A DNA stretch of 55,833 nucleotides. Source: Shimia sp. (GTDB taxonomy: Bacteria; Pseudomonadota; Alphaproteobacteria; Rhodobacterales; Rhodobacteraceae). The notes under the pieces were generated by a model. It had not been told where the DNA came from and did no database searches. It was given only the letters and a program-made list of their open reading frames with translations. The stretch covers positions 1 to 55,833 of the forward strand of contig JAAENN010000082.1 of NCBI GenBank assembly GCA_024224295.1, read 5' to 3'. The position numbers and the translations under genes are program-made. Below, one piece after another: positions 322-12,151 of this stretch (position 1 is its first letter; every line of letters begins with the position of its first letter).

Positions 322-398
322 GCCGCCTTAGCTCAGTTGGTTAGAGCACTGGTTTGTGGAACCAGGGGTCCTCCGTTCAAGCCGGAGAGGCGGTACCA
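322..398 (+). tRNA. tRNA-His (anticodon GTG)
   Basis: A full cloverleaf can be drawn: acceptor 322-328 with 388-394, anticodon stem 349-353 with 361-365, anticodon GTG at 356-358, T-stem 371-375 with 383-387 around TTCAAGC, and an encoded CCA at 396-398. The base before position 1 is T, the 1:72 pair is G:U, and the discriminator is A. Ordinary bacterial tRNA-His has an extra G-1 opposite C73. The form seen here matches the special tRNA-His known from most alphaproteobacteria, which is read by a divergent histidyl-tRNA synthetase. Confidence 0.95.
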
Positions 399-767: not shown

Positions 768-2156
768 CTATGCAGTCACGTGATAGCCACGTGTCCGATA
801 AGCCTCTGCGATGCGGAAGCAGACGCCTCGAAAAGTAACTTCCTTTGCGAGAGTCTCCTGATCTGGCACTGCGCCATCACGCAGAAAGTCGGTGGACGCG
901 AGAATGATTGCGTGCAGCGCCTCACCTGAAGTGCCATATCCAAAGTAGTCAGCGACGGCGTCCTCAATGTCGAAGGGGATTTGCGCAAACTCGGGGTGCT
1001 GCGCTAGCATGGTGGTGACAAATTCCGCCCATATGTTGCCCTGAACGCTGAAAATACGCCCGGCATCGCCCACGGATTGCGGCGCAAAAGTGCCAGCAGG
1101 GCGGGCCATACCTGTTACCATTTGTAGAACAGAGCGAGGCTTAGTAACTTCGGACGGGTCGTCTGTGACGCTGACCAGATCACAATGTGTGGCAAGTCGC
1201 AAATCAAGCCGTTCCAACACTTGATCCATATGACAGGCCAGAGCGCAGTCACCACCGGGCCAATCATTTCCTTCGCCAGCCATATGTAGCCCAACCGCGT
1301 TCCCGGTGTCTGGATCCACCCAACAGGCACCACTGTCGCCCGGCAGGGAGAGCGCTGCCATCGGAGCTGAAGCGTCCTGAGGGACAAGTCGGAAGCCATC
1401 AATTTCGACAGTTTTGTCTATTCCATGCGCATGAGTGTGTACGACTTTATACGTGCCAATACCATCCACTCGCGCGTGCGTCAGGCCAGTGGTACGACCA
1501 TATTTACATAGGTTTCGACCTAGCGCAGCCCGGGCGACGCCGGTCAAAGGCAGGTCTAGTTGTTTCAATGAAGGGTGCCACGGCGTGGCGCCTGTCAGCG
1601 TAGCAAAAGCGGCGTCCCCTTGGCGCGACAGCATGGATTTGATCAGTCGCCCGATTGGCAGGTCGGACGTGTTATATCCATAAACCAGATCGCTGTCCGC
1701 TCCTGCAGGAGACGATAGGACATGCCAATTGGACAGTATGCCGGGTTTGCCTGTGGCGCGGTCAATGGCAATCGCGCCGATGGTGCCTGCGTTGGCGCCT
1801 CGGCGCTGGCAGGGGCTGCCGGACAAAAGTGTGGTGGCGAAGGTGTTTTGGCTATCGCCTTGATCGCGGTGCACCTTGTAGGTGCTGGACACGACATCCA
1901 CTGGGAAACCGTTGATGCGACTTACGATGCGTTGGCCTGGGTCCAATTCGTCCTCAGGCAACTTTGCATCTACATGCACCCGCAGACAAACCTTGTTGGT
2001 GGCCAAGCCTCCAACACGCTTGAAGCCAATGTCGTAACCGGTCACATCCGCGCGATCTCGGTACATTTCACGCAAAGCCTCGAGCGCCTCTTGGCGCGCG
2101 CCATTTGAAGCCGTTTGAATGGCGGGTGTTCGTTCGGTTGGACGGGGGCGGGACAT
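768..2156 (-). CDS. Trypsin-fold (S1-like) serine peptidase domain protein
   Basis: 462 residues, preceded by a strong ribosome-binding site (AAAGGAGG, 6 nt before the ATG). The central part is a chymotrypsin-like double barrel with all three catalytic residues in canonical context: His145 in LSNWHVL, Asp181 in GDAAFA and Ser275 in LPGDSGACW. There is no signal peptide or membrane segment, so it is probably cytoplasmic or released another way. The first 110 residues and the last 120 are not recognised; the C-terminal part (DIEDAVADYFGYG) could be a binding domain. It is divergent from the YcaO gene with 84-144 bp between starts, depending on the YcaO start used. It could act as a regulatory or maturation protease for a neighbour, but the substrate is unknown. 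Family assignment is good; role is inference. Confidence 0.75.
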   Translation of the reverse strand: MSRPRPTERTPAIQTASNGARQEALEALREMYRDRADVTGYDIGFKRVGGLATNKVCLRVHVDAKLPEDELDPGQRIVSRINGFPVDVVSSTYKVHRDQGDSQNTFATTLLSGSPCQRRGANAGTIGAIAIDRATGKPGILSNWHVLSSPAGADSDLVYGYNTSDLPIGRLIKSMLSRQGDAAFATLTGATPWHPSLKQLDLPLTGVARAALGRNLCKYGRTTGLTHARVDGIGTYKVVHTHAHGIDKTVEIDGFRLVPQDASAPMAALSLPGDSGACWVDPDTGNAVGLHMAGEGNDWPGGDCALACHMDQVLERLDLRLATHCDLVSVTDDPSEVTKPRSVLQMVTGMARPAGTFAPQSVGDAGRIFSVQGNIWAEFVTTMLAQHPEFAQIPFDIEDAVADYFGYGTSGEALHAIILASTDFLRDGAVPDQETLAKEVTFRGVCFRIAEAYRTRGYHVTA

Positions 2157-2300
2157 AGGAACCTCCTTTTGGTCGTCTTTGAGGTTACTGTGTCAAAGCC
2201 AGCGTTATTCTTGCGTGATTTACTTTGATCGCCTTGTATTGTGGGCGATGTGGCGGTGGTTTTTACCAAAAAACATAACTCTTGGGGGAATCAGGGCAGA

Positions 2301-3353
2301 ATGTTCACGGAATTGCGGGAGTTCGAGCGCCCCTTGGGGGGCGAGATTGTAGTGCCAGATGAGGCCCCGGCGTTTTGTACGGATGTGTTGGCACAATTGG
2401 ACTACTTGTTTCTTGGACACCCCAGCGCGGTGCCGGCTTTGACGATCGCGGGCGGTTTGTTGGCTGATGGTACGTCGGTTTCCGGCGCCGGCGAGAGCCG
2501 GTGTGCGGCATTGGTTCGGTTGGCCGGTGAGGCCGCTGAGCAATTGGGATTGCGCGCAGTCGTGGCGGGTTTGTCACCTAGTGGAAATGTGCCGCTGTTG
2601 GACTGGAATGGTGTTTATGCCGGACATGGAGCGCGGACGGTTCTTCCACTAACGTCCACCGATACCGCGGGATTCTCCGAAGGGTTGGCTGCACACACCG
2701 AGATTGCATCCGCACGGCTGCATGGGGTGCTTGAACTGTTTGAGCGGGACGCTGCGGCGCATTGGTGGGCTGGGGCCACGCCGGCGGTTTTGCTGACGGA
2801 TGCTGAGGAAGCCGTGGTGGAGGCGCTTGGAGCACGGCCAAATCGCCAGACGCGGATTGTGGATGTGACCTGTGACACTGGCGTGCCGGTGGTCGTCGCG
2901 GCGTCTTTTGACGATTGCGGTGCCGATTTTTGCTTTGGCGCGGCGGCGGGGGCATCTTTGGTGGCAGCAATTGGGGGCGCATTGCGAGAACTCGGAGCCG
3001 CGGAGTTTGGCCAGATATTGGAGCAATCCCGAGGGGGGAAGGACACTGTCGAAAAACATGGTCAAAGCGCTGACACACTAACACTTTCTGTTTTGGAAAC
3101 GCAGATGGTTGCGCAGAAAATCTCGCTTAAAACGAAAGTCAATATGTGCAATACAATCGCCAAAGGAGAGTGGCGTGGCATTCTCCGCAGGAATGGGATT
3201 GGTATTGTTGATCTTGGTTGTGTTGGGGGGCATTTTCGGGTCATCAAAGCGGTGAGCGCTGAGTTGCAGCCTGGTCGGGAAACCTATGATTGTCCACGGT
3301 TTCAGGAAGCGCTTTTGGGGAAAACACGACGGACGCAGGAACCTCTGTACTAA
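2301..3353 (+). CDS. YcaO-domain protein (TOMM cyclodehydratase-like)
   Basis: 350 residues from ATG 2301; a GTG at 2241 would add 20 residues but has no ribosome-binding site. YcaO hallmarks occur in order: an early GEAAEQL helix in place of the usual 'E-A-x-E-R', then LHGVLELFERDAAAHWW (the second ATP/Mg glutamate motif), then AIGGALRELGAAEF where 'AL-x-E-xx-Q' is expected, and a C-terminal GIVDLG...FRVIKA strand pair. YcaO enzymes use ATP to activate peptide amides, giving azolines, thioamides or amidines. No Pro-rich C-terminal tail (as in azoline-forming YcaOs), no TfuA and no E1-like partner is seen here. Several ATP-site positions deviate (R to Q in the first motif; the Gln of the third not obvious). 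The stop overlaps the next start (TAATG), so the gene is translationally coupled to the BTAD regulator. Confidence 0.75.
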   Translation: MFTELREFERPLGGEIVVPDEAPAFCTDVLAQLDYLFLGHPSAVPALTIAGGLLADGTSVSGAGESRCAALVRLAGEAAEQLGLRAVVAGLSPSGNVPLLDWNGVYAGHGARTVLPLTSTDTAGFSEGLAAHTEIASARLHGVLELFERDAAAHWWAGATPAVLLTDAEEAVVEALGARPNRQTRIVDVTCDTGVPVVVAASFDDCGADFCFGAAAGASLVAAIGGALRELGAAEFGQILEQSRGGKDTVEKHGQSADTLTLSVLETQMVAQKISLKTKVNMCNTIAKGEWRGILRRNGIGIVDLGCVGGHFRVIKAVSAELQPGRETYDCPRFQEALLGKTRRTQEPLY

Positions 3354-5380
3354 TGGAGCGGAACCAGACCAACTCTGCGGCGCCGGACAGGGCGCGGCAG
3401 CGACTTCAGATTGATGTGATCGGCGGGTTTCAGGCCCGCTGTAACGGCGTACGTGTCGAGATCAAGAAAAAGAAGGCCGCGGCTCTGCTGGTTTTGTTGG
3501 CCTTGTCCCCTGAGGTGCGCATGACGCGGGAAAAGCTGCGTGGGGCGCTCTGGCCGGACAGTTCAGAAACCGCGGCTCAGACCAGTTTGCGCAATGCGGT
3601 TTGGGCGCTGAAATCCGCGCTCAAGGAAGCTGGTTTTGACGGATTTTTCACCAATCGCAGCGACATCTGGCTGGCGCAGGAACGGGTGTCTGTAGATCTG
3701 GATATGCTGCTAGACGCAGCGGATCAGGGCGATATGGCCAAGGTGTTGCGGGTTGATCCGCAAAAGTTGGCTTTGTTTGACCGTGATCAGGTTGAAATCA
3801 ACGATATTTTTTCCTCTCGAGTGATTGAGACAGCGCAACACGTCAGCGGCATGATGCGTCATCGTCTGAACGCGGCGGCCGATCGGGCGGGCTCCAAGAA
3901 AGAACAGCTGGAGATTCTGCAGTTTGTCGCGGGAATGGATCCGGCCGATGAAGGCGCTGCACGGCGATTGATCGAGGCTTATTGGAAAAGCGGACAGATT
4001 GCGAATGCACTGACGGTGTATCAGTCGCTTTGGAGCCTGTTGGATCAAGAGTATGGCGAAGAGCCCTCGGAAGAGACGCAGCAACTTGTCGTTGATATCA
4101 AGTCACCCGCCAGTGCCTTGACTCCTACGACCCTGCGCCCGGTGATTGTCGTTGCGCAGCCTAATTACGCACATCTTGAGGCGGTTCGCGCTGGCGAGGC
4201 AGAAGTGCTACGCCAAGCTTTGTGCGCCAATCTTTCGCGGTTTCGTGAGTGGCAGATTTTCGACGCGGCCCTAATGACGGAACAGGCCCAGGTGGGCGAA
4301 CCGGGGGCCGCGAGCTATTCTCTGGTATTGCAGCCGCAGGATCGGGGCAACGAGTTGGCCTGTCGCGCTGTGCTGTCAGACCGAGGCACGGGCGAGTTGT
4401 TGTGGTCTGAGGCGCTGACCGATGCGGGGCAGATCACATTGGCAGAAGGGCCGGGCGCGGCGGAGCGCCTGGCGGTGGCATTGAACCTGCATCTTTCGGC
4501 GTTCAAGGGTCCGCTGATCGCAACCAACAAAACCGCACCAAGTGCCTATGAGCGCTGGGTTGAAGCGCAAGGGCATATTTTGCAGTTTACGTTGGAAGGT
4601 TGGAAGACTGCAGAGGGTTTGTTGGATGATTTGATCCGGGATTATCCCGAGTTCAGTCGGGCCTATTCCAGCCGCGCGTCGATTGAGAATATGCGGCAGA
4701 TCTCCTTTCCGGGCCTGTACAGCTCGCCTGAGATGCATGTCGAAGGCTTGCGACTGGCGCAGCGCGCGATTGAGCTGGACCCGATGGACAGCCGGGGGCA
4801 GTTGGCTATGGGCTGGTCGGCTGCCATGTCGCGGCAGTTTGAGCAGGCGGAATTGGCCTTTGATTTGGCGTTTCAATACAATGAAAATGACCCTTGGACG
4901 ATGACATCCTCGGCGGTGGGGCTGGCATTTTGCAATCAGCAGGAGGCGTCCAGCCGTCTTCTCGATCTGCTGTTCAAGCTGAAGTTCCGTTTGCAGCCCT
5001 CACATTGGAGCTACGTTGCGGCGACGCGGTTCATGGCTGGAGACTACGAGGGATGTATCGCGGCGTCAGAGAAGTCTGAGGAGATTTCCCACGACGTGCC
5101 GGCCTGGCATGCCTCCGCACTAGGGTTGGTGGGACGGCTGCCTGAAGCGGCCTCGGTGGCGCGGCGGTTTGAGAGCATTGCGCGGGCCAACTGGGTGGCC
5201 GAAGGGCCGCCGGAGCGTGCGGAGATCACCCGGTGGTTGGTCTCAGGCTTCCCGATCCGCGACCGGAATGTCTGGCTTGCGCTGCGAGATGGTTTGCGTT
5301 TGGCGGATATGCCAGTCCCTGATTTGATCCAAAGCGACAAAGTTGCGCTTGGATATCAATTGGATCCCGGCACATCCTAA
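3353..5380 (+). CDS. BTAD/SARP-type transcriptional regulator with TPR C-terminus
   Basis: 675 residues from ATG 3353, whose A is the last base of the YcaO stop; AGGA lies upstream. Residues about 17-110 form an OmpR-type winged helix (LRGALWPDSSETAAQTSLRN, with basic KKKKAAALL), followed by a bacterial transcriptional activation domain to about 250 (IEAYWKSGQIANALTVYQSL). The rest has a non-recognised alpha/beta middle part and TPR-like helices (AYSSRASIENM, RAIELDPMDSRGQLAMG). There is no membrane segment. SARP-like regulators usually bind direct repeats near promoters of secondary metabolite or stress genes. The context makes it the likely controller of the YcaO gene or of the facing peroxidase pair; this is inference. 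Confidence 0.8.
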   Translation: MERNQTNSAAPDRARQRLQIDVIGGFQARCNGVRVEIKKKKAAALLVLLALSPEVRMTREKLRGALWPDSSETAAQTSLRNAVWALKSALKEAGFDGFFTNRSDIWLAQERVSVDLDMLLDAADQGDMAKVLRVDPQKLALFDRDQVEINDIFSSRVIETAQHVSGMMRHRLNAAADRAGSKKEQLEILQFVAGMDPADEGAARRLIEAYWKSGQIANALTVYQSLWSLLDQEYGEEPSEETQQLVVDIKSPASALTPTTLRPVIVVAQPNYAHLEAVRAGEAEVLRQALCANLSRFREWQIFDAALMTEQAQVGEPGAASYSLVLQPQDRGNELACRAVLSDRGTGELLWSEALTDAGQITLAEGPGAAERLAVALNLHLSAFKGPLIATNKTAPSAYERWVEAQGHILQFTLEGWKTAEGLLDDLIRDYPEFSRAYSSRASIENMRQISFPGLYSSPEMHVEGLRLAQRAIELDPMDSRGQLAMGWSAAMSRQFEQAELAFDLAFQYNENDPWTMTSSAVGLAFCNQQEASSRLLDLLFKLKFRLQPSHWSYVAATRFMAGDYEGCIAASEKSEEISHDVPAWHASALGLVGRLPEAASVARRFESIARANWVAEGPPERAEITRWLVSGFPIRDRNVWLALRDGLRLADMPVPDLIQSDKVALGYQLDPGTS

Positions 5381-5395
5381 TGTTTTACCGCGAGG

Positions 5396-5767
5396 CTATA
5401 CGCATTTGCGTAGGGCGTAATCTGCGATGCGTTTGGAGCGGAAGTTGTGCTCTTCCTCTGCTGGTGTAACCAGCGTTGCATCATAGGCTTCGTCGTAGAA
5501 ATCCGGCAGCGTATAGGGGCTGGGCGGTGGCAGGTCGAGGTCGTCGGGGTGTGGTAGCATGATGCTCACGACCTTCTGATCCGGCGCGTTAAAAATTTGC
5601 AGCGGGTCCGCGTCTTTGAAGTCTTCCGAAAGTTCGGCCACGTTGCTTGGGACCTGGGCCCGAAAGTCGCCCACAGTGGCTGGCACCGTGTCGGCATTGC
5701 GTGCCCAGCCTTGCAGGATTTCTCCCATCTTTAGGTAGTTTTTGATTTTGATCTCATATGGATCCAT
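5396..5767 (-). CDS. Small acidic protein of unknown function, paired with heme peroxidase
   Basis: 123 residues with a good ribosome-binding site (AAGGAGG, 6 nt from the ATG). No family recognised. It is acidic overall, with a predicted N-terminal amphipathic helix (DPYEIKIKNYLKMGEILQGWAR), a Pro-rich centre (LPPPSPYTLPDFY) and a single Cys one residue before the end. There is no signal peptide. It begins 30 nt after the peroxidase stop and on the same strand, so the two are almost certainly one operon. Options are a peroxidase partner or a substrate of the nearby YcaO/protease enzymes. Nothing in the sequence shows a clear leader/core division, so a RiPP precursor role is only a possibility. 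Confidence 0.6.
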   Translation of the reverse strand: MDPYEIKIKNYLKMGEILQGWARNADTVPATVGDFRAQVPSNVAELSEDFKDADPLQIFNAPDQKVVSIMLPHPDDLDLPPPSPYTLPDFYDEAYDATLVTPAEEEHNFRSKRIADYALRKCV

Positions 5768-5797
5768 TGGTTGTCCTCCTTGTTGAGACAGTGGTTT

Positions 5798-7375
5798 TCA
5801 AGTAATTTCGGTTGCTGTGATCAAAGTTGGCATGTCTCGGATGGGTGCAGGACCATAGGTGGCTTGTTCAAGAGCCACGGCGATGTGGTCGTCGGTGGTC
5901 ATGGGGGTGTCGTCAGCAAAGACAGGGCCGAAGGCTGCGCCAAGGATTAGGCCGCCTAGGGGGCCATAGGTGGCCCCGTTGGAGCCGTCGATCTGCGCCT
6001 CGAGCGCGAGGAAGGTCACAAGCGGCAGGTTGGCGGTGATGGTGGTTTTGTCGGTATCCGACATAGGTGGTTTGTGCCCCGAACGCACGGCCGCGTCGAG
6101 CGCGGCCATGCCAGTGGCGGCTACGCGGTCATAGTGGGTGGCGGCCTCAAAGGGCACGGCAATGCCTTGCGCAGTAAGCGCGGCGGCGGAGGCGGCAATC
6201 AGGTCCTGAACGCGGCCCAGACCAACCCATTTCTCGCGCACGAGATCGCGCATGGCGGTGCCTGCAGGGTAGCTTTCCTTTGTTGGTTTGCCAGCGGTTG
6301 CCAAAGTCATGCCGTCGGCCGTGTGGGGGCCAAAGCGGATGGCCCAGTTGAAGTTGTCTGCTAGAGGTGCATCGGGCGCGGTGAAGAACAGATCCCAGTC
6401 AATCTTCCAATCAATCGGTGTGGGCACCATACCGGGTTCGTGCAGGGATGAGTGGTTGATGATCTTGCGCAGATCAACTTCGCCGAGATCATGTCCCGCA
6501 ACGCCGTTGTTCAGCATATATTCGGGACGCACCATGCTATGAGCCATGCGCGCAATGCCGTAGGCAAAGAGGTCGTTGGTTTCTGCGGCGTCGCGACCCA
6601 GCGGCTCCAAATTTGGTGTATCGTCAAACAAGGACAGCACATTTGCAGGCATAATGCGCGGTAGCAGGTCATGGCGCAGAATGCGGCGGTAGATACGCGT
6701 GGTTGCGTGGCGGGCCACGCGAGAACGGTGATGTGGCGGGATTTGGGCTTGTGTGCCGGGCATTGGCACAGTCGCAGTTTGCGTCACGAGCTTATTGTAA
6801 ACCGCGTGGAAGAATGCGGTCAGCTGCGCCAAAATGTTGTTGTCGTCATTGCGGGAGTCTGGGATCAGCACATCGGTGAAAGGGCCATCTGCCTCAGGCG
6901 CATCGGCACTGTAGCGGCCGCGGGGCAGGTCGGCTGCAGGCGCAAGGCGATCATCCGCCATGCGGCCTGCCGGGCGGAACTTGCCAAGACGAAGCCGGTG
7001 GGTACCGTCGCGGTGGTTCATGTCAAAGGCATGCGGGCACACAATTGGGCCGCCACCAAATAGGGTTTCCAACCCAAGCTTTTCCTGACGCAGGTTTTGC
7101 GAGCGTCCGCCGATGTCATCAAAGGCTCGGGGAACCAGCGAGCTGAACACTAGGTCGTGTCCCGCGAGTTGAAAGAGGTAAGAATAACCTGCTGGCACTC
7201 CGGGGTGGTTGCCGCTTGGTTTATTAAGAAAGCCTTTGGCGGCATTTGTGGAGCTGTTGTTATTGTTAAGCAAGGTCGCAAGGTAGATGGTCATTTCCTC
7301 AGTGAGGGAGGAGCGATGAGACTCGCCGCCGGAGGGGGCGAAGACGTCATCAACTTCAAGATCACGGTGCGACAT
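5798..7375 (-). CDS. Animal-type heme peroxidase family protein, divergent active site
   Basis: 525 residues from ATG 7375 (AAAAGGA upstream; a GTG at 7405 is less likely). The alpha-helical peroxidase-cyclooxygenase fold is recognisable: FQLAGHDLVF (distal His73), ILAQLTAFFHAVYNKL (181-196), the IYRRILRHDLLPRI helix, AYGIARMAHSMVRPEYMLN (proximal His279), and a GPLGGLILGA tail. The LREHN-type motif that normally supplies the distal Arg and the heme-linked Glu reads HAVYN here, so both are replaced by Ala and Val. There is no signal peptide, unlike many secreted bacterial homologues. It could be a peroxidase with changed chemistry, or a heme protein without classical peroxidase activity. It forms an operon with the 123-residue protein downstream. 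Confidence 0.75.
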   Translation of the reverse strand: MSHRDLEVDDVFAPSGGESHRSSLTEEMTIYLATLLNNNNSSTNAAKGFLNKPSGNHPGVPAGYSYLFQLAGHDLVFSSLVPRAFDDIGGRSQNLRQEKLGLETLFGGGPIVCPHAFDMNHRDGTHRLRLGKFRPAGRMADDRLAPAADLPRGRYSADAPEADGPFTDVLIPDSRNDDNNILAQLTAFFHAVYNKLVTQTATVPMPGTQAQIPPHHRSRVARHATTRIYRRILRHDLLPRIMPANVLSLFDDTPNLEPLGRDAAETNDLFAYGIARMAHSMVRPEYMLNNGVAGHDLGEVDLRKIINHSSLHEPGMVPTPIDWKIDWDLFFTAPDAPLADNFNWAIRFGPHTADGMTLATAGKPTKESYPAGTAMRDLVREKWVGLGRVQDLIAASAAALTAQGIAVPFEAATHYDRVAATGMAALDAAVRSGHKPPMSDTDKTTITANLPLVTFLALEAQIDGSNGATYGPLGGLILGAAFGPVFADDTPMTTDDHIAVALEQATYGPAPIRDMPTLITATEIT

Positions 7376-7817: not shown

Positions 7818-10178
7818 ATGTGTGTTCCTGCGGACGACCAAAACCCACTAAAGACAATTGTGCGTTGGTTGAGCCTGCTGGCCGCCTGCGTAGTAGGATT
7901 TCTCGCGCCGGTAATATCGGCTGAAGTAGACCCGCTGGAGATGCCTTACACAGACGTGGCCTATACCGGCGACGAGACCCTGCGGGACTTTGTAGCGCGA
8001 TACCTCAAAGACCCCGATCTCTGGCCGACAGTTTTGCAGATCAACAAAGTGACCTCACCCGCCGATCTTGTGCCGGGCGCGGTATTGCAGATGCCGGTGG
8101 CGCAAGTGGCCGCAGCTGATGCGGCGCTGGCTGAAGCCTTGGTGGCGATCCAGAAAGCTACTTCAAAAGGCGCGCTGCTGTTTGCGCCACAGGAGATTGG
8201 CGCCGCAATTTCAGATCGGGAAATGGCAATAGGGGCGCGGAGCGAAGGAGCGTGGCGCAAAGTTGTGAGTTTTGCCGGGTCAGCGACAGGACATGCAACG
8301 GAGGCGTTTGAAATTGCACTGGCACAGCGGGATCGCGCGGCGGAGGCGTTGATCACCGACATTCATGGGCGTGTGGAGGGGCGGGAGCCTGCCGAAGCAG
8401 CCTGGTCGGGTCGGGGCCTGAATGATGTTTTGATTGAATTTGAAAAAGTCCGCACGCTCACCAACTCTACCACGCAAGTGACTTTCCGCGATCTAAGCCG
8501 ATTGCGGCTGAATCCCAATTCCAACGCCACCATTCAACGCATGCGGTCTGATCCTTTGACGGGCAAGGAGGTCACAAAAGTGTCGCTGGCAAACGGCGAT
8601 TTTTATGCGCTGCTTAATCAGTTGTCTGATCGCGACAGTTTCGAAATCGACGTGCCGGGCATTCAGACAACCACCGATAGTGATGATTTCTGGATCAAGA
8701 AAGAGGCTGATAAAGCCCTGTTTGTGAATTATGACACGGCGTCCCTAGATATCGAAGCCGATGCCACCAAGGTGTCGCTCGGTCAGGACGAGGGGGTCGT
8801 GATCACCAAGGACGGCATTGCGACACGGGCGCAGGTGCTGGAATGGCCGTTGCTCAGCGCGCCAATGGATCGTGCGGAAGTGTATGGCGCAGGCGTTTGG
8901 TTGGCGTGGCAGCAATATCCGGAGGCCAGCGGCTATTGGTTTGAGGTGGCGGGGGATCCGGCATTTAACCAGATGATTGCCACAGAATGGGGTGTGAAGG
9001 AACTTGGCTTTGACGTCGCAGGCCTAGCCCCGGGCGCGCATTTCTGGCGGGTGGCAGCACTCGATGGGCTTGGGTTGCCTGGTAAATGGAGTGAAGTGCG
9101 CCGCTTTGAAATGCGCCAAGACAGCACACCGCCTTTCCTGACTTTGTTGGCACCGGCAGAAGGCGTGTTGGTCGAGGTACCAGAAGTGGCGATTCTAGGC
9201 GCGTCTGAAGCGGGGGTGGCGCTCACTTTAAATGGCGCAAAGGTGGAGGTCGCGGCGGACGGTGGCTTTGTCGCTTCTGTGACGCTCACGCCGGGCGCCA
9301 ATCAGATCGTTTTGGTGGCCACAGATCCAGCCGGAAATGTGTCCGAGAAGCGCGAGCAGCTGCGGTACGTGCCGCGTGTTGCAACGACCATGACTCTGAA
9401 CCCGGACTTGGCGCGGAACAGTGCAGGGCATTTGGTCAGCCGAAATGCGGAGATGACGGTTGTGGCCGCAACCTCTGCAAAACCTGGGCAAGAGGTGATC
9501 CTGCGCAATTCAGTCGGTTCCGAGGCTGGACGCACGCGCATTTCGGTGGGCGGGGTTTTGGCGATCACGGTGCCGGTGGCGGATGAGTTGCGGGCGTTCA
9601 GCGTGGAAGTATTGTCGGAAGGTGGGGTGTCCACCGGGACTTTGGCGTTTGCCGTGGTGCGGGATAGCGCGGCGCCAGAGCTGGTTCTGGATGTGCCGCC
9701 GCCGCGAGCCACATCGGAGAAGGCTATCGATCTTACGGGGACCCTTGGTGACGCTGTGATGCTGGAGTTAAACGGCGCGAACCAGGATATCTTTGACGGC
9801 AGCTTTGCGATTCAGGCCGCGCTGGTTGAAGGGCAAAATCTGCTGGAGCTCCGGGCGGTGGATGCGGCGGGCAATGTTGGTGTTCTTTTGGTTGAGACGG
9901 TTTTGGACCTTTCGCCGCCGGAGATATTGAACGCGGGAATGACAAGGCCGCAAGGCGAAGATGGTCCGGTTGAGATTGTTGTCGCAGCTCAGGATGTGAG
10001 CGGGCTGCGTCAGGCGGCGCCGTTTCTGGTTGAGGTCGGGGACGAGGAGTTTGAGGGCTACCTGCGCTGTGACAGTGCCCGGGGCATTTGTCGCGCAAGC
10101 CTGCCGCCGACACCGGGAAAGATGCGCCTGATTGAGGTGGTTGTACAAGACTATGCTGGAAATGAGGTGATCCGATGA
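7818..10178 (+). CDS. Secreted LysM / FecR / Ig-like repeat protein
   Basis: 786 residues from ATG 7818, chosen because GGGAG lies 7 nt upstream and a signal peptide follows directly (cleavage probably after PVISA, residue 35). Residues about 45-95 are a LysM peptidoglycan-binding domain (YTGDETLRDFVARYL...VPGAVLQMPV). About 215-345 is a FecR domain (VTFRDLSRLRLNPNS; VSLANGDFYALL; DEGVVITKDG). A fibronectin-like module with GAHFWRVAAL comes next, then several bacterial Ig-like repeats (TPGANQIVLVATDPAGNVS, VEGQNLLELRAVDAAGNVG). It is predicted to sit in the periplasm on the cell wall. The stop overlaps the start of the PKD gene (ATGA), so this is the first gene of a coupled three-gene operon ending in an adenylate cyclase. 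It likely works as a wall-linked sensor or scaffold; this is inferred from domain content. Confidence 0.8.
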   Translation: MCVPADDQNPLKTIVRWLSLLAACVVGFLAPVISAEVDPLEMPYTDVAYTGDETLRDFVARYLKDPDLWPTVLQINKVTSPADLVPGAVLQMPVAQVAAADAALAEALVAIQKATSKGALLFAPQEIGAAISDREMAIGARSEGAWRKVVSFAGSATGHATEAFEIALAQRDRAAEALITDIHGRVEGREPAEAAWSGRGLNDVLIEFEKVRTLTNSTTQVTFRDLSRLRLNPNSNATIQRMRSDPLTGKEVTKVSLANGDFYALLNQLSDRDSFEIDVPGIQTTTDSDDFWIKKEADKALFVNYDTASLDIEADATKVSLGQDEGVVITKDGIATRAQVLEWPLLSAPMDRAEVYGAGVWLAWQQYPEASGYWFEVAGDPAFNQMIATEWGVKELGFDVAGLAPGAHFWRVAALDGLGLPGKWSEVRRFEMRQDSTPPFLTLLAPAEGVLVEVPEVAILGASEAGVALTLNGAKVEVAADGGFVASVTLTPGANQIVLVATDPAGNVSEKREQLRYVPRVATTMTLNPDLARNSAGHLVSRNAEMTVVAATSAKPGQEVILRNSVGSEAGRTRISVGGVLAITVPVADELRAFSVEVLSEGGVSTGTLAFAVVRDSAAPELVLDVPPPRATSEKAIDLTGTLGDAVMLELNGANQDIFDGSFAIQAALVEGQNLLELRAVDAAGNVGVLLVETVLDLSPPEILNAGMTRPQGEDGPVEIVVAAQDVSGLRQAAPFLVEVGDEEFEGYLRCDSARGICRASLPPTPGKMRLIEVVVQDYAGNEVIR

Positions 10179-12151
10179 CGAGGAGCGCACGCATGACTTG
10201 GCTGAAACTGATGGTGGCGGCCTTGTCGGCCTGGGGGCTTTGGCAGGCACAGGTCAAAGCACAGGACATGGTGCCTCCAGCAGCGCACGGGCAGTTGGTC
10301 GTGTACGGCTCTGCCGCGCCGACGCGGGAAGGAGATGTTGATCATCGAGAGGTGATATTTTTTAGCGTTTCGAGTGATTTACGTGACAGAGTTTATGTGC
10401 GCATTTTTGACCCGGAGATGCGTGGGGAGCACGATTTCCGCTATGGCGGGGGTGGCAACTCTCGCACGGTGTATCGGGTCTATGGCGGCGACGGCGCGCG
10501 CAGCAGCGTGGCCATGCCTGTGCCGGTTGCGGATGGGGAGACGCCAACCAAGGTGACACGTGACGCGGTTTTGGCTGTACGTGCCGGGGAGGTCTTGCGG
10601 GAGGCGGCATTTGGCTCTGAAGCCGAGACAGATCAGCAATGGATCGCGCTTGGAAGCGTGCGGGCGCGGCAAGGTGAGGTCATTGGCGACCGCGCGTGGT
10701 TCCGGTTGGAGGTGCTCGGTGCCGATGGGGACGACGGCAACGGGTTCAATGTGGATGTGAGCCTTTTAAGGGATGCGCACCGGCGGCCTGAGGGGCTGGA
10801 GATGATCGCCTATCAACCCACCATACGCTGGCCAGGGTCCGGCCCGGGCACGCGGGTGGAGTTTCTGTCTACGGCTGGGGATCTGACGGTGCAGAACTTT
10901 GACGGGGCGCGGGCCGATTTGCGGCTCAACCGGATGTATTCAGATTATGCGCTGCGCGCGTCTGGGCAGAATGTTTGGGCCAGTGAGGTTGTCAGTGCCG
11001 AAGAGCTGGCAGGCGAGGATATTCTGTCGCTGACGCTGCAAGGCGGGTTTGAGAGCCCCAATGATGTGACGTTGAGCCTGTTTGATGCAGATGGGCAAGC
11101 GGTGCCGATGTTGATGCCACCGCGACTGGCACCAGTGCCGGAGCGCCCGGAGGCGATGCCGCGGGCGCGGGAGCTGGCGGATTGTTCGAGCGTGGCGTTT
11201 GACGGCAGCTTGCCGGACGGCGATCCGCTGTTGGCCTACCGCTGGGATTATGGTGATGGGGCCAGCTCGGAAGAGCCGGTGATTGTCTACAGCTACGGCG
11301 CGCCAGGGCGGCTTGACGCGCGGCTACGGGTGCTGTTGCCAGGCACGCGGGCGGCGCGGGGGGCGGAGGCCGAAGTCCCCGTGCACGTGCGTGTGGCTCC
11401 GCGGGCCGTGGCGGGCAGTGCGATCACGGTGGCCCCGGGCGATGTGGTGCCGTTTTCTGGCGCTGGGTCGTTGGCGTCGGACAGCCCGATCACGCGTTAC
11501 CTATGGAGTTTCGGAGATGGCGCGGCTGCGGACACGGTGGCGGCCAGTCACACTTACAAGGAACCGGGGGAGTATCGGGCGGTTTTAAGAGTGAGCGATG
11601 ATGCGGTGCATCCGTGTAACTTTGGGGTGGCGACGCGTTTGGTGATGGTGAATTTTCCACCAGTGGCTGAAGCAGGCACAGATGTGAACACCATTGTCGG
11701 GCAGCCCGTGACGTTAGACGGGGCCGCGAGTTACGATGTTGATGGGGCCATCACCGACTACGTTTGGGATTTGGGGGACAACACAGAGCGCGAGGGCAGC
11801 CGCGTGACTCATGTGTATCAGCAGCCCGGGGTCTATCAGGTGGCTTTGGCCGTGCGCGATGACAGCGGCGTATCCAATGCGAAAAGCACGGACCAATTGA
11901 CCATTCGGGTGAATGCCCCACCTGTTCCCGCGATTGACGGTCCTGAAGCACCGGTGGCTGTTGGCGAGGCGGTGATCCTGAATGGCAGCCGGTCCAGCGA
12001 CGCCGACGGGGTGATCCTGTCGTATCTTTGGGACTTGGGCGATGGGGCCATGGGCGAAGGGCCGGTTGCGGAATATGCCTGGGCCAGCCCGGGTGTCTAT
12101 GAGGTGACGCTCACGGTGATTGATGACAGCGGCACACAATCAGCGACCTAG
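10175..12151 (+). CDS. PKD-repeat surface/periplasmic protein, 5' part of gene split by an amber codon
   Basis: 658 residues. ATG 10175 overlaps the previous stop; a second ATG at 10193 (MTWLKLMVAALSAWG) would start closer to the signal peptide, which ends near QVKAQ. The N-terminal 310 residues are a non-recognised beta-rich domain that may belong to a pre-PKD jelly-roll. Four PKD modules follow, with the diagnostic YRWDYGDG, YLWSFGDG, YVWDLGDN and YLWDLGDG. The reading frame stops at TAG 12149-12151 inside the linker after the fourth PKD, exactly where sister repeats read through. The same frame continues for 967 more codons, so this is the front of a single gene of about 1631 codons. If the stop is real, the product would be a truncated exported protein. 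Confidence 0.8.
   Translation: MTRSARMTWLKLMVAALSAWGLWQAQVKAQDMVPPAAHGQLVVYGSAAPTREGDVDHREVIFFSVSSDLRDRVYVRIFDPEMRGEHDFRYGGGGNSRTVYRVYGGDGARSSVAMPVPVADGETPTKVTRDAVLAVRAGEVLREAAFGSEAETDQQWIALGSVRARQGEVIGDRAWFRLEVLGADGDDGNGFNVDVSLLRDAHRRPEGLEMIAYQPTIRWPGSGPGTRVEFLSTAGDLTVQNFDGARADLRLNRMYSDYALRASGQNVWASEVVSAEELAGEDILSLTLQGGFESPNDVTLSLFDADGQAVPMLMPPRLAPVPERPEAMPRARELADCSSVAFDGSLPDGDPLLAYRWDYGDGASSEEPVIVYSYGAPGRLDARLRVLLPGTRAARGAEAEVPVHVRVAPRAVAGSAITVAPGDVVPFSGAGSLASDSPITRYLWSFGDGAAADTVAASHTYKEPGEYRAVLRVSDDAVHPCNFGVATRLVMVNFPPVAEAGTDVNTIVGQPVTLDGAASYDVDGAITDYVWDLGDNTEREGSRVTHVYQQPGVYQVALAVRDDSGVSNAKSTDQLTIRVNAPPVPAIDGPEAPVAVGEAVILNGSRSSDADGVILSYLWDLGDGAMGEGPVAEYAWASPGVYEVTLTVIDDSGTQSAT

Follow-up and report, generated by a model that had tools for sequence, protein, structure and literature searches.

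YcaO enzymes install unusual backbone chemistry, and a YcaO gene without its usual partners raises the question of what its product acts on. Here, we address this question for a contig of Shimia sp. (Rhodobacteraceae; GenBank assembly GCA_024224295.1, contig JAAENN010000082.1), of which the whole analyzed stretch of 55,833 nucleotides is hereafter called the window. In the window, a YcaO gene lies among genes for a trypsin-fold serine protease, a BTAD-type regulator, a 123-residue protein, and a heme peroxidase. A first-pass annotation made from the sequence alone had proposed this five-gene set as a possible module, and gene calls and domain scans bore out all five genes at the positions given below. 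Our results favor an accessory cassette in which, on balance probably, the C-terminal cysteine of the small protein is the target of the YcaO, and the modified tail is acted on or used by the peroxidase. The features are as follows.

Positions 768 to 2156, minus strand: trypsin-fold serine protease of 462 residues, an optional part of the module (conservation of His145, Asp181, and Ser275).
Positions 2157 to 2300, no strand: upstream region common to the divergent protease and YcaO genes (reading of the sequence).
Positions 2301 to 3353, plus strand: standalone YcaO of 350 residues (PF02624, 74.4 bits; cut-off 25.7).
Positions 3353 to 5380, plus strand: BTAD/TPR regulator of 675 residues, its start overlapping the YcaO stop (PF03704, 44 bits; cut-off 22.1).
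Positions 5396 to 5767, minus strand: small partner protein of 123 residues, the proposed YcaO substrate (alignment; Cys-X tail).
Positions 5798 to 7375, minus strand: animal-type heme peroxidase of 525 residues (relatives passing PF03098, profile matches in the PDB, and catalytic residues).
Positions 322 to 398, plus strand: tRNA-His, a landmark outside the module and adjoining it.

The YcaO and regulator genes are coupled by a TAATG overlap of stop and start at 3351-3355, as had been claimed, and the YcaO start was set at the ATG at 2301 rather than at the GTG at 2241 because the relatives (about 350 residues) begin there. The peroxidase gene and the 123-residue gene, which lies 30 bp downstream of it and has a strong ribosome-binding site (AAGGAGGACAACCA) ahead of its ATG, are convergent with the regulator gene. 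The end of the module was set at the peroxidase because the FecR-type gene that follows adjoins it in only two (L045 and L046) of the loci L044-L050. The window's genome holds a single PF02624 match.

Six other genomes (L044-L049) carry all five genes in the order and orientation of the window, and a cut Sulfitobacter contig (L050) ends within the protease gene; these are the seven loci that the YcaO alignment found in named genomes. Four parts, namely YcaO, the BTAD/TPR regulator, the small protein, and the peroxidase, form a core that recurs in Rhodobacterales and, within the same class, in Mesorhizobium and two other families; its carriers include many alphaproteobacteria from the sea and from soil. 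Among 394 genomes of the family, PF02624 is found in 48 (53 places) and the peroxidase profile in 90, and 28 genomes match both; in 19 of these 28, as counted from the lists of places, the two genes are no more than 10 kb apart, so that the YcaO-peroxidase linkage is well above chance. The regulator, peroxidase, and small-protein profiles converge on the same loci. The co-occurrence of YcaO, 123-residue family, peroxidase, and BTAD protein for which the first-pass annotation had suggested a neighborhood search is thus found, and the five genes are not scattered without linkage: their order is kept in L044-L049, and the core is linked in 31 of the 104 loci compared, which carry all four parts. 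Two further loci (L061 and L063) lack only the peroxidase within the stretch examined, one (L118) has YcaO, regulator, and peroxidase by profile and a small protein spotted by eye, and one (L060) has YcaO and peroxidase, with the contig end beside the peroxidase; a single locus (L072) has none of the parts. The surroundings of 51 of the 53 YcaO places in the family sample and of 22 of 27 in the class sample were covered, as were 18 YcaO-free peroxidase places of the family sample. Plasmid records were examined for 3 of 10 from the peroxidase search (2 with the module), 7 of 105 from the regulator search (3 with the module, 1 more with it split), and 2 of 34 from a further plasmid listing (none with the module).

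Across these loci, the small protein goes with YcaO and not with the peroxidase. It is present in 33 of the 104 loci, all 33 of which also have YcaO and the regulator, and at none of the 21 peroxidase loci without YcaO (L091-L108, L113, L156, L157). The small-protein profile matches 20 of the 394 family genomes, always at YcaO loci, all 20 being rows of the profile itself. Ten loci lie beyond this first profile, each with a YcaO, a peroxidase, and a small protein, whose tail is Cys-X in nine and Cys-X-X in L118; the regulator adjoins in nine, and in L158 it lies about 44 kb off on the same plasmid. They were reached by different routes: L109 and L110 via the small-protein profile, which includes the tail; L111 (Mesorhizobium huakuii) and L112 (Paroceanicella profunda) via the peroxidase on plasmids; L116 and L118 via YcaO among 230 genomes sampled across the class; L149 (Phaeobacter inhibens), L150 (Paracoccus denitrificans), and L152 (Paracoccus aminovorans) via the regulator on plasmids; and L158 (Paracoccus sp. 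SMMA_5_TC) via YcaO.

In the small protein of the window, Cys122 is the only cysteine and the penultimate residue (codon at 5402-5404), and in an alignment of 23 relatives it is one of three invariant positions, with Gly15 and Pro72. A Cys-X tail occurs in 33 of 33 small-protein loci; at distant loci, the protein bodies are hardly alike, yet the protein in the same position ends in Cys-X. The background frequency of a penultimate cysteine is 18 in 968 other predicted proteins of the loci, a count that comes from a simple gene caller and includes related loci; Fisher tests on these counts disregard relatedness and are given no weight. An alignment-based protein search gave 52 proteins, and one from another search brought the set to 53, 52 of which have the tail, the exception being a 74-residue fragment, and the tail cysteine is the sole cysteine in 14 of 27 small proteins. 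The L118 protein, which ends in CGP, was missed by the profile threshold (E 0.0052 in a small search). Domain scans of the window protein and its relatives returned no recognized domain. AlphaFold models of the small protein were poor, worst toward the C terminus (mean predicted local distance difference test scores of 58.3 with 27 rows and 56.9 with 41 rows), and Foldseek searches with them came back empty, up to E 10 in one case and up to 0.001 in the other; nothing is drawn from these models. In the window (Shimia) clade, the small protein is the slowest-changing member of the set, with 90-96% identity. It follows the peroxidase gene in most loci, and the peroxidase takes part in two fusions: L018 has a single open frame of 675 codons joining peroxidase and small protein, and L110 has a single frame of 848 codons joining YcaO and peroxidase. 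Read together, these two predicted fusions tie the three proteins to one task. The first-pass annotation had seen no obvious precursor; the 123-residue protein, which is strictly linked to YcaO, probably fills that place.

The YcaO and the peroxidase keep their main catalytic residues. In the YcaO, Glu77, Glu80, Glu145, Glu148, and Arg149 are kept in 33-34 of 34 module sequences, the acidic residues being, we presume, those that bind ATP and magnesium. The SagD-type family TIGR03604 stays below its cut-off (68.9 bits against 219.25). As had been noted for the window, neither a TfuA nor an E1-like partner is found at the module: among 25 module genomes, TfuA occurs in 2, in both beside another YcaO, and TIGR03882 (E1-like/ocin-ThiF) reaches its cut-off in none, with sub-cut-off matches in 22 and none of these near the module. 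The claim that any such pathway would not be a standard one therefore holds. The YcaO and peroxidase trees have many weak nodes and are not used as evidence. Within the Shimia clade, no gene of the set changes faster than YcaO (57-67% identity). In Paracoccus denitrificans, a further YcaO frame, unlike that of the module, is found close by (L150:3509-5071).

The window peroxidase alone matches no Pfam family, and three of five relatives scanned (L041, L052, and L088) pass PF03098 (An_peroxidase), L018 and L057 being below the cut-off; searched against the PDB, the family profile matches lactoperoxidase, peroxinectin, and myeloperoxidase. The residues that we take to be the distal histidine, the catalytic arginine, and the proximal histidine are conserved (His73 in 32 of 32, Arg175 in 31 of 32, and His279 in 32 of 32). 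An altered active site, as had been proposed, is thus ruled out for the main catalytic residues; the residue beside the distal His, Asp in myeloperoxidase, is Gly in the window. Shared with other animal-type heme peroxidases are the distal His, the Arg, the proximal His, and the PDB relatives found by profile, whereas the module enzyme differs from them in three ways: inspection by eye shows no evident signal sequence, the window enzyme lacks the Asp next to the distal His, and the gene is linked to those for YcaO and the small protein. The 21 relatives examined at loci free of YcaO lie in other gene contexts. In two loci, a protein of 210-226 residues lies between peroxidase and YcaO (L067:8159-8839 and L060:1766-2398); the two look alike by eye, and the L067 protein has a weak Amidase_2 match.

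YcaO chemistry consists in the ATP-dependent activation of a peptide bond. In the mechanism that we favor, the standalone YcaO would act on the Cys-X tail of its small partner, the simplest outcome being a cysteine cyclized onto the preceding carbonyl, and the heme peroxidase would oxidize the modified tail or use it; trimming or release of the tail may fall to the protease in the subfamily to which the window belongs, and the BTAD/TPR protein would regulate the set, its common C-terminal part possibly sensing the product. The observed basis is the linkage, the gene order, the fusions, the near-invariant tail, the intact catalytic residues, and the accessory distribution, from which we infer that YcaO acts on the tail and with which chemistry, how the steps follow one another, and any release or sensing. 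A bolder version, which we consider possible with the chances somewhat against it, would make the cassette a new class of ribosomal maturation, in which a divergent carrier family with a gene-encoded C-terminal Cys-X "core" is served by a standalone YcaO and an animal-type heme peroxidase, and a dedicated TPR receptor reading the product is linked either with DNA binding or with a nucleotide cyclase.

Several observations weigh against the tail as YcaO substrate. Known azoline-forming YcaOs carry a proline-rich C terminus, which the module YcaO lacks: the window protein ends in EPLY and its relatives in PLY. The small proteins, at 123-258 residues, are long for precursors. Among the 104 loci, 4 have YcaO and regulator without the small protein (L051, L054, L087, and L124), 39 have YcaO alone, mostly of other types, and 19 have the peroxidase alone; the peroxidase family also occurs free of YcaO. 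On Polymorphobacter plasmids, the regulator family stands beside a YcaO-TfuA fusion without the small protein, and the small-protein profile was trained on YcaO loci, with related loci not being independent. With no dedicated exporter noticed among the module genes and no protease in most loci, release of a peptide is doubtful. The earlier reading as a pathway to a ribosomally synthesized and post-translationally modified peptide (RiPP) is kept in part: a conserved, nonstandard YcaO module stands, and a peptide product and its release would be conjecture.

In one rival reading, the tail is modified and never leaves the protein, serving as a bound cofactor or redox group of the peroxidase, so that the cassette would mature an enzyme and not make a peptide natural product. 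The fusion of small protein and peroxidase in L018, the protease in only 9 of 33 loci, the lack of a noticed exporter, and the high conservation of the small protein in the window clade fit this; against it, YcaO and small protein stand without a peroxidase in L061 and L063, and we hold this reading to be rather unlikely. These same two loci argue against the small protein being a helper of YcaO, a recognition or sulfur-relay subunit with sulfur carried on the tail cysteine and the peroxidase or some other protein as the real substrate, and so does the lack of a recognized domain. There is precedent in the YcaO that thioamidates methyl-coenzyme M reductase, some partner may be needed where TfuA and E1-like proteins are missing, a terminal cysteine could carry sulfur, and both kinds of fusion fit as well; we judge this unlikely, with a real share of the probability left to it.

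That the small protein is a mere subunit of the peroxidase, with a structural terminal cysteine and a YcaO acting on something unrelated, would account for the gene order in most loci and for the L018 fusion; its lack at all 21 YcaO-free peroxidase loci and its presence at two YcaO loci without a peroxidase make this quite improbable. Chance neighborhood could be read from the patchy spread (small-protein profile in 9 of 25 genus and 20 of 394 family genomes), and is refuted by the conserved linkage, the same gene set recurring in several orders, in fusions, and at ten loci beyond the first profile; we give it almost no weight. Modification of the C-terminal cysteine of the small protein by YcaO remains the reading that we prefer.

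The regulator and the protease are the more variable parts. The regulator had been described as SARP/BTAD-type, and the BTAD domain stands, whereas the N-terminal part is exchangeable: a Trans_reg_C winged helix scores 16.8 bits in the window, below the cut-off of 26.2, an adenylate/guanylate cyclase domain takes this place in four of nine regulators scanned (L027, L041, L088, and L090), and in the other five a winged helix matches this region weakly or not at all, whereas the C-terminal part is shared. On the Polymorphobacter plasmids (L153 and L154:7892-9793), the YcaO-TfuA fusion stands beside two proteins of the regulator family, its TfuA part being judged by eye. The protease keeps His145, Asp181, and Ser275, presumably its catalytic triad, in 8-9 of 9 relatives, and it has no Pfam family above cut-off and no PDB relative by sequence. 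Its presence in 9 of 33 small-protein loci rules it out as a core part, contrary to its earlier place in a RiPP tool set.

Pearlin-type pathways build on the C terminus of a carrier peptide, and the module, too, would have its chemistry at the extreme C-terminal end of a carrier, centered on a cysteine; it differs in that its cysteine is gene-encoded and in its enzyme set. An animal-type heme peroxidase is, to our knowledge, not part of any RiPP pathway described so far. Standalone-YcaO RiPPs (streptamidine, and bottromycin as named in PMC8442711) resemble the module, as far as excerpts of that paper go, in a YcaO with no E1-like or TfuA partner fused to it or next to it, a gene-encoded candidate substrate, and an oxidizing enzyme. 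In the same excerpts, these pathways have a short precursor, and streptamidine has a dehydrogenase, a hydrolase, and iron transporters, whereas in the module the partner is 123-258 residues long and its tail has two residues, the oxidizing enzyme is an animal-type heme peroxidase, and a BTAD/TPR regulator is present. The YcaO-TfuA thioamidated RiPPs, as described in part of PMC8120280, have YcaO in common with the module, which is without TfuA and, by a weak tree, of other YcaO lineages; YcaO-TfuA loci of the same family also have adenylate cyclase or BTAD-type proteins beside them (L051, L055, L056, and L153).

Within the open-access literature, with subscription papers and preprints outside the scope, we found no paper joining YcaO with heme peroxidase and RiPP, with SARP and Rhodobacter, or with Roseobacter; a match for YcaO and BTAD was a journal code and not the domain. 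One paper that contains YcaO, peroxidase, and precursor peptide is PMC9867215, on Brevibacillus and Lysinibacillus. From this limited search, the cassette seems not to have been described, and it points to an undescribed way of chemically modifying a protein tail. Most standalone YcaOs are without an assigned function, as stated for Actinobacteria in an excerpt of PMC8442711, and for one YcaO family the cassette offers a specific target of a single residue. Should the tail be modified as proposed, an animal-type heme peroxidase would enter ribosomal peptide chemistry, and there would be an explanation for gene sets of Phaeobacter, Paracoccus, Paroceanicella, and Mesorhizobium whose present annotations read hypothetical, peroxidase family, and YcaO-like.

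The Shimia cassette is accessory. The small-protein profile matches 9 of the 25 genus genomes, which rules out a fixed housekeeping role in the genus, and the cassette adjoins tRNA-His in the window and in L044-L048. Eleven genus genomes have the FecR-type gene with no module beside it, and in four of them (L140, L141, L142, and L146) tRNA-His lies no more than about 0.3 kb upstream of that gene, the arrangement expected of an empty site; no tRNA was found within the 1.5 kb examined in the remaining seven. Integrase-type insertion was considered and set aside, a repeat of the tRNA end not being found on the far side of the module. Three subtypes occur within one genus (the window type, L041, and L109 with L110), which suggests horizontal exchange. 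An anti-phage defense system was ruled out, PADLOC models giving no match among seven proteins. In the window, the FecR-type gene is followed by one for a protein with PKD-like repeats, as judged by eye (7818-12151 for the two), and the FecR-type gene is present in 14 of the 25 genus genomes.

Six of the 104 loci (L062, L064, L068, L069, L070, and L073) are of a second kind, with a PF02624 YcaO, a shorter regulator-like protein, and another small protein of 103-134 residues, which ends in Cys-X-X in five and Cys-X in one. Because these loci also pair YcaO with a Cys-tailed small protein, partners with a C-terminal cysteine may be more widespread among such YcaOs.

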